DNA of 37,534 nucleotides from Syntrophomonadaceae bacterium (GTDB lineage: Bacteria > Bacillota > DSM-12270 > Thermacetogeniales > Thermacetogeniaceae), in the NCBI GenBank assembly GCA_012840405.1, contig DULM01000036.1, forward strand, positions 1-37,534. Direction: 5' to 3'. Positions 7,340 through 24,987 of the stretch are shown here, in pieces; within the stretch, counting starts at the first letter, position 1; every line of letters begins with the position of its first letter. A program made the translations under genes and the position numbers. Below the pieces are notes generated by a model. The model worked only from the letters and a program-made list of their open reading frames with translations. It did no database searches and was not told where the DNA came from.

Positions 7340-8044
7340 TCAGGCAAGATATTCCGCCATGCTCTGCAGTCCACGGTGCATTAAGCGGGAAACCCGGCGC
7401 TGGCCTATTCCCATTTCTTTTGCCACTTGCTGCTGTGTCAAGTCACGATAAAAAATCAGATAAATCACCCGGCGCTGCATATCATTTAGCCGCTTCAAAG
7501 CCTGCCGTACAGCAATTTGGTCCTCGATGGGCAGTTTAAAGTTCTCATAATAAATGTGCCTAAACTGACTTAAATCTAGGGTCTCCAGACTGACCCTGCC
7601 AGCCTGCAGTGCCTGGATTACTCCTTCTTTTCGGATATTAACTGCTTCTGCTACCTCCTCCAGGCTTGGAGGTTCTCCTGTTTTTTGGAGCAGATCATCC
7701 ATAGCCCGGTAGATGCGGGACTGGATATCTGCTACCCATCCCGGCCGGTCAAAGGATGCCTCCCGGCGCAGCTGGTGTCTCATCTCTCCCATGATGTAAT
7801 GTGATGCAAAAGTAACAAAGCGAACACCCTTCCCAGGATTAAAGCGCTTCAATGCTTTTAAAAGCCCTTCATATCCCGCCTGGATGAGGTCATCGAAAAA
7901 GCGGCTGCCCGAATAAAGGCTTGCGAAGTGATGCACCAAGGGCTTTCCCGCCATTATAACTTGTTTTAGATTTTCTTCGCTTCTGTCATTCCTATAAGCC
8001 ACTACCGCCTCTTCCAGATCCAGATGTTTACTTATTTTTTCCAT
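7340..8044 (-). CDS. Group 3 sigma-70 family factor inside the pilus operon
   Basis: The 234-residue product has region 2 (SRFFDDLIQAGYEGLLKALK and VRFVTFASHYIMGEMRHQLR, about 50-100), a region 3 segment (PPSLEEVAEAVNIRKEGVI, about 128-146) and a region 4 helix-turn-helix (LTQQQVAKEMGIGQRRVSRL, about 205-224). There is no region 1.1, so it resembles the SigB/SigF/SigG/flagellar class rather than the housekeeping factor. The ATG at 8044 has AAGGTGA at good spacing; a GTG at 8056 overlaps the pilC stop and is the alternative. Lying between pilC and the minor prepilins, it may control filament genes or an envelope regulon. Target promoters are not known. Confidence 0.85.
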   Translation of the reverse strand: MEKISKHLDLEEAVVAYRNDRSEENLKQVIMAGKPLVHHFASLYSGSRFFDDLIQAGYEGLLKALKRFNPGKGVRFVTFASHYIMGEMRHQLRREASFDRPGWVADIQSRIYRAMDDLLQKTGEPPSLEEVAEAVNIRKEGVIQALQAGRVSLETLDLSQFRHIYYENFKLPIEDQIAVRQALKRLNDMQRRVIYLIFYRDLTQQQVAKEMGIGQRRVSRLMHRGLQSMAEYLA

Positions 8045-8052
8045 TTCACTTA

Positions 8053-9258
8053 TCACCTTATTGAAGTAACCACATTAAACATAGGTAGGTACGGAGAAAT
8101 CACTATAAATGCAACAATACAGCCCACAACAATAATCAATAATGGTTCTATGACCGAGGCCAAGCCCTTAGCCATAGTAGCAACCTCTTCTTCATAAAAG
8201 CCAGCAACACGGCTCAGCATTTCCGGGAGGTTACCTGACTCCTCGCCCACAGCCACCATCTGAACCAGCATCGGTGGAAAAACCCCGCTTTCCTCAAGTG
8301 GTACTGACAGGGTTTTCCCTTCCTGAATCTCTAACCCGGTCATATTGATTGACTCTGCTACCAGTACGCTGCCTGCTGCTGGGCCAGCTGTTTCCAAGGC
8401 CTGCAGAACAGGTATCCCTCCTGCCAATAAGGTAGACATAATCCTGGCAAAGCGGGCCATCACCACACGGTAGAGCAGGTGGCCGATCACCGGGAGCTTA
8501 AATCTGATCCGGTCCCAGGCGCGGCTGCCTGATGGTGTCTGCAGATAATAGCGAATACCATAAACCAGCGCTATAACAGCAAGGATATAGAGATACCAGT
8601 AGGAGCGTAATGAATTGGAGATGCCCATTACAATTTTAGTAATCACAGGCAGTTCCATGCCCTCAGGAAAATAGTTCATAAAGATCGGCACTACCCCGAC
8701 CAGCATGGCGATAAGCACAACAAAAGCAAAACACAAAACCACTATGGGATAAAAGGTAGCAGCTTTGATATTATCCCTCAGGCTTTTCTCCCTATCCAGC
8801 TGATCGGAAAGCTGCTTTAAGACCTCATCGAGATTACCGCTGACCTCTCCTGATTTAATCATATTGATATACATGGATGAGAAAACATCAGGAAAGTTCA
8901 TTAAAGAATCTGAGAAACTCATACCGCTGTCAACACTTTGAGCAATCTGGCTAAGCACTTGACTTAAATCCCGGTTGGTAGTCTGAATGCTCAATGTTTG
9001 CAAAGCCCTGGTCAACGGTATACCGGACTCCAGGAGTGTTTGCAGTTGCCGGCTGAACATTGCAAGGTCGGCAAGCTTCACTTTACGTTTCCTCTGAAAA
9101 AGAGTGCTGAAGGGTGACTCCCTCACCTCTGCTACATCCAGCACAGTTAAACCCATTTTGCGGAGATTATCTGCAACCGCTATCTCATGGTCAGCATTCA
9201 TTTTGCCGGTTATGGTTCTTCCCTGTCTGTCCACTACCTCATATGAATAAAGCCCCAT
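8053..9258 (-). CDS. pilC: Type IV pilus inner-membrane platform protein PilC (GspF family)
   Basis: This 401-residue polytopic protein has two tandem GspF domains of about 120 residues. Each carries the family pattern FSRQLQTLLESGIPLTRAL (first, about 65-83) and FARIMSTLLAGGIPVLQAL (second, about 265-283). Three membrane segments are visible near 170-190, 210-230 and 370-395. PilC receives the force from PilB/PilT and passes pilin subunits into the filament. It follows pilT by about 20 bp and meets the sigma factor gene at its stop. A second paralogue lies at 14.5-15.7 kb. Confidence 0.92.
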   Translation of the reverse strand: MGLYSYEVVDRQGRTITGKMNADHEIAVADNLRKMGLTVLDVAEVRESPFSTLFQRKRKVKLADLAMFSRQLQTLLESGIPLTRALQTLSIQTTNRDLSQVLSQIAQSVDSGMSFSDSLMNFPDVFSSMYINMIKSGEVSGNLDEVLKQLSDQLDREKSLRDNIKAATFYPIVVLCFAFVVLIAMLVGVVPIFMNYFPEGMELPVITKIVMGISNSLRSYWYLYILAVIALVYGIRYYLQTPSGSRAWDRIRFKLPVIGHLLYRVVMARFARIMSTLLAGGIPVLQALETAGPAAGSVLVAESINMTGLEIQEGKTLSVPLEESGVFPPMLVQMVAVGEESGNLPEMLSRVAGFYEEEVATMAKGLASVIEPLLIIVVGCIVAFIVISPYLPMFNVVTSIR

Positions 9259-22360: not shown

Positions 22361-22501
22361 AGAAATACCCCTCAATTATCCTGATTTTTATTATTTATAA
22401 GAATAATAAACCAGTTATCAGGTGATAGCAAGACAGACAGGCACCATTTATTATCCCCAACCATATTATTAATAGGTGACTAATCAACGGAGGGGATCTA
22501 T

Positions 22502-22867
22502 GTGTCAATAGAGCTGTTCCTGGCAACAGCTTTCTCTTTTCTTCCAGGACTCGTCCTGCTGGCAGGTTATATCAGCAACAATGCATTCCCCAGGCCCCTT
22601 TCTGAAGAGGATGAAGCCTTGTACCTGCGCCGCATGGAAAATGGTGATGAAGAGGCAAGAAATATTCTCATCGAACATAACCTGAGGCTGGTAGCTCATA
22701 TCATCAAAAAATTTGACGGTGTGGGTGATGACCCTGATGACCTGATCTCTATAGGGACTATCGGTTTGATCAAGGCAATCAATACCTATAATACCGCTAA
22801 AGGAACAAAACTGGCCACCTATGCCGCCCGCTGCATCGAAAATGAGATCCTGATGACAATAACCTAA
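22502..22867 (+). CDS. sigK: sigK 5-prime segment: pro-sigma-K N-terminal half, interrupted
   Basis: Sigma-K directs late mother-cell genes in sporulation. This half starts at GTG 22502, six bases after GGAGGGG. Residues 1-22 are a hydrophobic pro-sequence ([20 protein letters not shown]), removed by SpoIVFB in relatives. [13 protein letters not shown] and region 2 ([34 protein letters not shown]) follow. The coding matches sigma-K through IENEILM, then runs into TIT and a stop inside the element. Codons 1-114 come before the recombination point; the other 121 are at 24622-24984. A weak sigma-E-like promoter (GATAGCA, 14 bases, CATTTATT at 22424-22452) may drive it. Confidence 0.93.
22841..22864. 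other. Left attachment site of the sigK element
   Basis: AATGA (22841-22845) runs into GAGATCCTGATGACA. GAGATCCT at 22844-22851 matches 24622-24629 at the other end. The inner arm CTGATGACA (22850-22858) is the exact reverse complement of TGTCATCAG at 24609-24617. The crossover most likely lies at GA 22844-22845. Confidence 0.75.
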
Positions 22868-24372
22868 CGGATAAACCCACCTGCATATCCAGGGTCTGCT
22901 TTCAGCACAATGGTCAACAGCATGCTGCTCAGGTTTTTCCCCGAGGAACCAGGCTCAGGCCTTCCCTTAACCATGATCTGTGAAATTAAAGCCCTGACCA
23001 AAAAGCTTTTATCCTTAAAACTGAGTTGATCGATCCCCTCCAATACTTGCTGTGCCAGCCTCTGTAGCTCTTTTTCCGCTATTGTTTTTCCTGCCCTTTC
23101 AAGCCGCTGTTCCAATTCCAGTTTTCTCTTTTTTAATCTCTCCTCCCGGCTTTTGATAGTCAAAAGCTTTTTCCTGGTTTCCTCATCCAACTCCAGGAGG
23201 CCGGCAGCCAGGGCTGAGGTAACAGTTATCCTTCCCTTTTCAATTTTGCTCAACCGCTTTATCAACAGGTCATATTCCCTTTTCAGTTCATCGATACTTG
23301 ATGCTGCAGCCGCCTCCCTGGCAACAGCCAGAGGGTCACAGAAAAAAACTTTAAGCTGTTCCCAAACTGATCTTTCCAGCAAATCAGCTGCCACTGTTTT
23401 GGCCGGACGGCATCCCTGTTTTTGTGATACAGCCCTGGAGCGGCGGCAGGTATAACAGCGTCTTCCTTTCCCCCACCAGCTCAGATAGGCACCACCCATA
23501 GTGTTTCCACAATCAGCACAGATTAATAATCCGGAGAGAAGATAGCTGCTGCTCTTTTTAGACCATTTCCTTTGGATAGAATGAAGTTTGTCCTGGGCCT
23601 GCTGCCAGGTTTCCCGGTCCACAATAGCTGGAACAGGTATAGTGATCACCTCATCTGGAGGCCGCTTTTTCCCGTACTGCCACTCACCCTTAAAAACCGG
23701 ATTGTTTAAGATCTGCTTTACCACCTGGCGGTGCCAAAAATCCTTCCCCCGGCGTGTGGGAACCTTTAAATCATTTAAGCGGTTGGCCACCCCTGCTATT
23801 CCGATCTCCTCTTGAGTAAACCAGCGAAAAATTCTGCGCACCACATCAGCTTCATCATCATCCAGTGAAACCTCTCCTGTGGCAGGGTTATAGCGATAGC
23901 CATAAACATCAAAATTAACAGGAATTCCACCCTGCCGGGCCTTCTGCAGCTTGCCCCGTGTGACCCGTTCCCTTATTTTTTCTCTTTCATATTCAGCAAT
24001 AGCGCCTTTGATGGAGTAAAATAAGCGGCCTTCTGGGGTTGTTTTCCACTCAAAATCGAGAAACTCCAACCTGACCCCTGCTTTTTCAAACTCTTCACTG
24101 AGCAAAAGCTGATGTGCTAGTTTGCGGGAAAGCCGGTCCGGATCCCTTAAAATAATGCATTCAACCTGCCCTGAATCAACCGCATCCCTGAGTGCGTTAA
24201 GGCCTGGACGATCTAAAACAGCACCTGAAACCCCTTCATCAGCGAAGATTAAGACCTTATCTGCACCTAGCTCTTTTGCCCTTTTACAGCAGGCTTCTTT
24301 TTGTTCGCTGAGACTATAGCCATGGATTGCCTGCTCCTCAGTGCTTACCCTGATATAGACCGCGGCGCGCAA
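22864..24372 (-). CDS. Large serine recombinase of the sigK element (SpoIVCA family)
   Basis: This 502-residue site-specific recombinase is predicted to excise the element during sporulation. The catalytic Ser10 is in [12 protein letters not shown]. The resolvase domain continues through RDPDRLSR and [11 protein letters not shown] (to about 145). A recombinase domain follows ([10 protein letters not shown] to NPVFKGEW), then a zinc-ribbon ([10 protein letters not shown] near 286, CYTC and GC about 30-45 residues later), a coiled coil (about 370-450) and a C-terminal tail. All catalytic-domain landmarks seem intact. It starts from TTG with GAAGGGAAAAGGGA before it, and overlaps the 58-codon gene by 28 bases. 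Identity as SpoIVCA rests on location. Confidence 0.92.
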
Positions 24373-24521
24373 TCCCTTTTCCCTTCTTTCTCCATTAACT
24401 CCAGCACCTTTTTACCCAGAAAACAAAAAGCAGATTCTATGCCATCACCACCTGCAAAAACAAACCGCACTTCCGGATCATTCTGCTTTTTGTTTGCTTC
24501 TTTGGTCTGAAGCTTTGCCAT
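24345..24521 (-). CDS. 58-residue protein of the sigK element
   Basis: ATG at 24521 is preceded by GAAAGGGGGG; the product runs MAKLQTKEANKKQNDPEVRF to CAPRSISG and contains FVFAGGDGIESAFCFLGKK. It is basic at the start, and its 3-prime end overlaps the recombinase start by 28 bases, so the two are likely translated together. I know no family for it. In Clostridioides difficile a small protein acts as the directionality factor for skin excision, so this could be a counterpart; that is inference. A weak sigma-E-like promoter (GCATAGG, 15 bases, CGTATTAA) lies about 20-60 bases upstream of its start. Confidence 0.65.
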   Translation of the reverse strand: MAKLQTKEANKKQNDPEVRFVFAGGDGIESAFCFLGKKVLELMEKEGKRDCAPRSISG

Positions 24522-24602
24522 ACTGAAGGCCCCCCTTTCTCTGAAATTAATACGAATCCCACAGATTGTCCTATGCATGGGCAAATGTTATTTTATTCCG
24601 CA

Positions 24603-24633
24603 GGCTTCTGTCATCAGCTTGGAGATCCTCATG
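24603..24633. other. Right attachment site of the sigK element
   Basis: TGTCATCAG (24609-24617) is the inner arm; GA at 24622-24623 is the likely crossover; GAGATCCTCATG (24622-24633) is in frame with the sigK 3-prime half. Relative to the left site, GAGATCCT and ATG match with one G/C change between them. Confidence 0.75.
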
Positions 24634-24987
24634 TTCCTGCGGGCATCAAAGAAGAGCAGGAGTGAGGTTTTCCTTTATGACCCTATCGGTACAGATAAAG
24701 AGGGCAATGAGATAACCCTGATCGATATCCTGGGAACAGACCCTGATTCTGTATCAGAATTGGTTGAGAAATTTTATGAATCCCGTCTGGTACTGGAAAA
24801 GCTTAAAAAATTAAGCAAACGGGAGCGAAAGGTTTTAGAACTGCGGTATGGCCTTGGAGGTGAGCGCCGCAAAACACAGCGGGAGATCGCCCGTTTATTC
24901 GGAATCTCCCGCAGTTATGTCTCTCGCATTGAAAAAAAAGCATTGACCAAACTGTTTAATGAACTGACCTCAAACAGCGAAAAATAG
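24622..24987 (+). CDS. sigK: sigK 3-prime segment: sigma-K C-terminal half
   Basis: Codons 115-235 of the reconstructed gene. EILMFLRASKKSRSEV finishes region 2, LYDPIGTDKEGNEITLIDIL is the family block after it, and region 4 is KTQREIARLFGISRSYVSRI, a near-perfect match to sigma-K. An open frame extends left to 24577, but those residues come from the element and have no ribosome site, so this half is not expected to be translated until excision. The C-terminus ends LFNELTSNSEK, shorter than in B. subtilis. The DUF1540 gene follows after 73 bp. Confidence 0.92.
   Translation, partial: EILMFLRASKKSRSEVFLYDPIGTDKEGNEITLIDILGTDPDSVSELVEKFYESRLVLEKLKKLSKRERKVLELRYGLGGERRKTQREIARLFGISRSYVSRIEKKALTKLFNELTSNSEK

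Follow-up and report, generated by a model that had tools for sequence, protein, structure and literature searches.

The window, by which we mean the whole stretch of 37,534 nucleotides analysed here, contains a sigK gene that spans positions 22502-24987 and is interrupted at codon 115 by an element of 1,778 bp. The 5' part (22502-22843; codons 1-114, with a GTG start) and the 3' part (24622-24987; codons 115-235 and the stop codon) both lie on the plus strand, and the sequence GAGATCCT is found at 22844 and again at 24622, a spacing of exactly 1,778 bp. Fusing the gene at this repeat produces a single frame of 235 amino acids, from the GTG at 22502 to the TAG at 24987 (114 + 121 codons); the unexcised 5' frame stays open to 22867. 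The fused protein scores 360 bits against the SigK profile PRK05803 (cut-off 252) and 352 against TIGR02846 spore_sigmaK (cut-off 298.65) and remains below both SigE cut-offs, and either half by itself falls below the SigK cut-offs. These scores agree with the preliminary description of the locus, according to which the halves are collinear, in frame and rejoin to a pro-sigma-K of 235 residues. The rejoined protein begins with a stretch that resembles the hydrophobic pro-sequence known from pro-sigma-K.

Between the halves, the open reading frames and domain matches reveal just the two genes first described: a large serine recombinase (int; 22864-24372, minus strand, 502 aa, TTG start) and a 58-codon gene for a putative recombination directionality factor, or RDF (rdf; 24345-24521, minus strand), which overlaps the recombinase start by 28 nt. 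The recombinase comprises the Pfam domains Resolvase, Recombinase and Zn_ribbon_recom, and its catalytic-type Ser10 is invariant among relatives. Also within the element are a block resembling a promoter and a pair of att half-sites. Phage structural, packaging or replication genes are absent from its 1,778 bp, which have room for the recombinase and the small gene only.

The same structure is present in independent assemblies, including that of the cultured Syntrophaceticus schinkii Sp3, which makes it neither a chance arrangement nor a misassembly. A second complete sigK, for which the preliminary description had left room, was not found in the window genome (2.13 Mb in 261 contigs, 84.9% complete). 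The sole other match above the SigK-model cut-off, C163, is 52% identical to SigK, stands beside a second sporulation-type sigma gene and was read as SigE. SpoIIID and BofA are both encoded in this genome, and the retention of BofA together with the pro-sequence suggests that sigma-K is probably under another control too. Elsewhere in the window, a type IV pilus-like gene cluster contains a gene for a SigB/F/G-type sigma factor (7340-8056, minus strand), which scores below every equivalog cut-off.

Attachment sites and promoter-like blocks

When both ends of 16 elements are aligned on the sigK frame, their common core narrows to GA(A/G) at codon 115. The attP site, i.e., the predicted sequence of the excised circle, forms an inverted repeat around the middle of this GA that is shared by the 16 elements, with a mean of 15.2 pairs out of 26 as against 6.9 +/- 0.56 with shuffled arms; the subset of nine more distant elements still averages 15.0 of 26. 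In the window, the 26-nt arm at the left end of the element (22850-22875) is 73% complementary to the half-site at the right end (24592-24617), with which it pairs in the dyad analysis. The hybrid attL and attR dyads score 7.9 and 9.3, and that of attB is also weak, averaging 9.9 of 26, which leaves placement of the crossover to rest on attP. The attP dyad looks as one would expect for a site of a large serine integrase, and it places the predicted crossover at the GA in the dyad centre, that is at 22844-22845 within the attL core (22844-22851, plus strand) and at 24622-24623 within the attR core (24622-24629, plus strand). The element combines a short direct repeat at which its removal restores the frame, a large serine recombinase adjoining an att site, and a serine-integrase att dyad with GA as its non-palindromic central dinucleotide.

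Upstream of the small gene lies a SpoIIID-like box, TAGGACAATC (24564-24573, minus strand), which is matched at 10 of 10 positions in all 12 family elements and at nine or more in 22 of 34 elements, versus 67 of 2,000 shuffles. A putative -10 element of the C(G/A)TA type, CGTATTAAT (24546-24554, minus strand), follows 12 nt past the TAGGACA of the box, a spacing that is fixed in related elements; the -35 is not clear. Box and -10-like element occur together a single time in the window genome, at this position. In Clostridia bacterium DTU068 the distance from att site to box is about 500 bp greater and that from box to gene is kept; because the position of the box is tied to the genes rather than to att, it belongs to the transcription unit. 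The consensus for SpoIIID is WWRRACARNY, which TAGGACAATC fits, and the block appears to resemble SpoIIID-activated mother-cell promoters. Sigma-E/K promoters usually carry an A where the -10-like element has a conserved G. The 5' part of sigK is preceded by its own conserved block (22435-22471, plus strand), a presumed promoter that emerged from an alignment of nine family members and consists of AGACAGGCACCATTT followed by the -10-like CATATTATTA, with a similar SpoIIID-like site. In B. subtilis, SpoIIID activates both spoIVCA and the 5' sigK part (PMC517825), and the window element has a SpoIIID-like box ahead of its genes. The B. subtilis sigma-E promoter precedes the start of spoIVCA by over 200 bp (PMC6957869), and the putative promoter of the window element lies at a similar distance, about 200 bp, from the start of its recombinase. 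In C. difficile, TGTAACAAT serves as SpoIIID box (PMC5025042).

Proposed excision in the mother cell

We consider it very likely that the window element is a miniature sigK-intervening (skin) element, consisting of attL-int-rdf-attR and nothing else, which is excised in the mother cell. In the sporulating mother cell, a single promoter of the SpoIIID type would drive both genes, presumably through sigma-E with SpoIIID. The 58-aa protein would switch the recombinase to the excision direction; recombination between attL and attR at the codon-115 GA would then release a 1,778-bp circle and permit production of intact pro-sigma-K. The forespore would retain the unexcised allele and, given such confinement of excision to the mother cell, the element would be transmitted to the offspring. 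S. schinkii, which bears the same element, has been described as forming terminal endospores (PMC4642661) and hence needs some way of restoring sigK, if sigma-K is required there.

Substitution rates point in the same direction. The dN/dS of the recombinase is 0.13-0.18 within the genus and 0.08-0.15 in the sister genus. Within-genus dS is alike for the recombinase (0.25-0.33) and the sigK parts (0.13-0.36), from which we conclude that element and host gene have been co-inherited for a long time; across the two genera, recombinase dS exceeds 1 in places. What these comparisons show is selection on the presumed excisability of the element, and they do not show selection for the interruption itself. 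That the element is a dead insertion, with sigK a pseudogene and late sporulation lost in the lineage, is hardly credible, because even though the window genome is a MAG without phenotype and with 15% of the genome missing, the sigK halves are under constraint (dN/dS about 0.04-0.21), the recombinase is intact, the att dyad is retained, and SpoIIID and BofA are present.

The overlapping 58-codon gene probably encodes the excision factor. Its position, size and overlap agree with those of B. subtilis skr, a gene of 64 codons just upstream of spoIVCA that overlaps it in another frame (PMC6957869), and it was taken as a putative RDF on these grounds. In most related elements the small gene terminates 25 nt beyond the recombinase start, and a core of approximately V.VV(F/Y)...G.GL..A..LLAKK.LE is found upstream of nearly all related recombinases. 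This core sits upstream of the overlap and is kept across divergent elements, and small-gene dN/dS with the overlap left out (36 codons) is mostly below 0.34, apart from one noisy pair at 0.81. Both observations, like the identical position of the RDF gene in the B. subtilis skin, argue against other roles of the 58-codon gene, for instance as a leader or in coupling translation to that of the recombinase. We regard such a role as unlikely, but it would suit a protein that has no family match in Pfam, NCBIfam or PHROGs and whose structure model is a single helix of low to modest confidence; moreover, conservation in the final codons of the gene is confounded by their overlap with the recombinase. 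In dozens of elements, such a recombinase is preceded by a protein of about 45-65 aa that likewise matches nothing in these three collections; together these proteins form a candidate new RDF family.

Among the closest parallels are the skin elements of B. subtilis and C. difficile. The former splits sigK and has a serine recombinase, SpoIVCA, with Skr as its RDF, as proposed here, but measures 48 kb, compared with 1.8 kb without prophage genes in the window. The latter likewise employs a serine recombinase, CD1231, and a small RDF, CD1234, which is under sigma-E and SpoIIID, sigK being excised in the mother cell (PMC5025042). In contrast to the window element, it contains 19 genes, its RDF gene lies apart from that of the recombinase, and the recombinase is made in vegetative cells; its attB has been reported in another region of sigK than the B. 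subtilis attB (PMC6957869).

Related elements and other interruptions of sigK

A search of 100 related genomes identified recombinases 90-92% identical to that of the window in three genomes of the same genus and about 60-66% identical in eight genomes of the family; the named counterparts are Clostridia bacterium DTU068, Syntrophaceticus MAGs, Thermacetogenium MAGs and the isolate S. schinkii Sp3. Measured between the same sigK codons, the elements of six species have 1,778 (window), 1,781, 1,784, 1,794, 1,780 and 1,796 bp, and those of two further species 2,106 bp (including 191 N) and 2,286 bp. The complete 2.94-Mb genome of a T. phaeum-like family member, presumably T. phaeum, harbours an element of 3,723 bp, and in G013, from the same family, a gap of 28.2 kb separates the sigK halves. 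In the recombinase tree, the eight small family elements constitute one clade (100/97), which the T. phaeum-like element adjoins with weak support. The Sp3 recombinase (L048) is frameshifted near its C-terminus, owing to a sequencing error or to (early) decay, and the Sp3 small protein has GGVG for GGDG. Related recombinases at L067 and L069 have no detected sigK half adjoining.

More distant genomes have elements at codon 115 too. Those of Desulfocucumis, Pelotomaculum, Desulforamulus and others span 3.2-8.2 kb, whereas Bacillota Ch109 has one of 1,802 bp, with the recombinase (L068/L105) in sigK orientation. The DTU068 and T. phaeum-like elements have an extra gene in common, in opposite orientations, and DUF2225 genes are found inside the T. 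phaeum-like, Desulfocucumis and BRH_c4b elements, the Desulfocucumis call being based on likeness to the BRH_c4b protein. This pattern would fit a larger ancestor that shed cargo of non-phage type, although the direction is not proven. No obvious phage genes accompany the DUF2225 genes in the larger skin-type elements L064, L058 and L073; in BRH_c4b they come with a cyclic-nucleotide-binding domain. Close phage relatives of the window recombinase were not found, identity reaching at most about 40% in phage records and 33-34% in IMG/VR, nor were close plasmid relatives. The best-ranked phage match (39.7% over 67%) is carried by the Alicyclobacillus phage MMB025 (105 kb; PMC13141910), which, like C. 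perfringens phiS63, also integrates within sigK; unlike the window element, both are particle-forming phages.

Four sampled genomes of the family have the uninterrupted sigK alleles that the preliminary description proposed to look for. In others the gene is cut elsewhere. In G006 (L081, G006:C102:28500-34500) the cut lies at about codon 144, with the core AACGA, an element of 2,277 bp and a different serine recombinase. A third kind of recombinase is found at codons 65-69 in G012 (L084; core ACATATCATCAA, 4,384 bp), G005 (L082/L083) and G016 (L078-L080). G016 appears to bear both this element and one at codon 115, so that its sigK may be in three pieces; the expected middle piece is absent from the assembly. 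Outside the family, G042 (L106; 2,366 bp) and G108 (L107; 2,740 bp) have small elements at the usual site with distant recombinases. As small elements are associated with unlike recombinases, and in one case with another sigK site, they probably arose more than once. Among 140 genomes sampled from the phylum, the sigK 5' part is recognisable in 109, and in about 15 of these its frame is shortened, a rough lower guide because at least one known case escaped the open-frame measure. In G034 (C1) and G146 (C9, C18), a single full-length sigK is accompanied by one truncated 5' part of the gene.

The window element is therefore not unique, since at least eight such elements make up one clade and several other small ones lie outside it. 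It is the smallest sigK element measured here or found in the literature searched, which included few subscription papers; within that scope, no sigK element near 2 kb was found described. The statement in the preliminary description that known skin elements are phage-derived and tens of kb in size calls for a correction. A phage origin is not universal among gene-intervening elements: gin in gerE of B. cereus ATCC 10987 (28.6 kb, three recombinases) and the sigK island of B. cereus bv. anthracis (22 kb) have no phage genes (PMC5595907, PMC10745906) but, unlike the window element, many other genes.

Retention of the interruption

Stripping to the switch, as first described, is borne out by the lack of phage genes, and the element has descended vertically under purifying selection. 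That it is kept for regulation follows neither from small size nor from conservation. Any element inserted into a gene essential for sporulation has to remain excisable, whether helpful or not, and its conservation is explained equally well without a benefit.

The element may thus excise as proposed and yet be a locked-in selfish remnant, a reading to which we give an even chance. A copy that no longer excised would abolish sigma-K; recombinase, RDF and att sites therefore cannot decay, whereas cargo can, and cargo has apparently been lost while int and rdf remain under purifying selection. The four family members with an intact sigK manage without the element and, according to PMC10745906, which cites this result, deletion of skin is harmless to B. 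subtilis sporulation. Less easily accommodated are the fact that none of the eight genomes sampled from the two genera lacks the element, over distances at which recombinase dS is above 1 in places, the recurrence of small elements with unlike recombinases, and C. difficile strains lacking the insertion, which are reported not to sporulate. A more tentative suggestion, to which we would give somewhat less than even odds, is that mini-skins are domesticated developmental switches. The interruption itself would then be selected, elements of unlike origin having repeatedly been pared to attL-int-rdf-attR, and DNA excision in these bacteria would be a means, inherited vertically, of timing sigma-K rather than the exit of a tolerated parasite.

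The mechanism is known in kind; new here are the paring down to the switch itself, the fact that a clade has kept it, and its probable repeated origin. The mini-elements provide very small natural sets of recombinase, RDF and att sites for the study of serine integrase directionality. Moreover, whether skin is a parasite or a regulator is hard to settle with the described elements, which are large and contain many other genes. Here the interruption is the switch only, in a clade of eight species whose family also includes uninterrupted alleles and much larger elements, which allows the effect of interrupting sigK to be tested without cargo.
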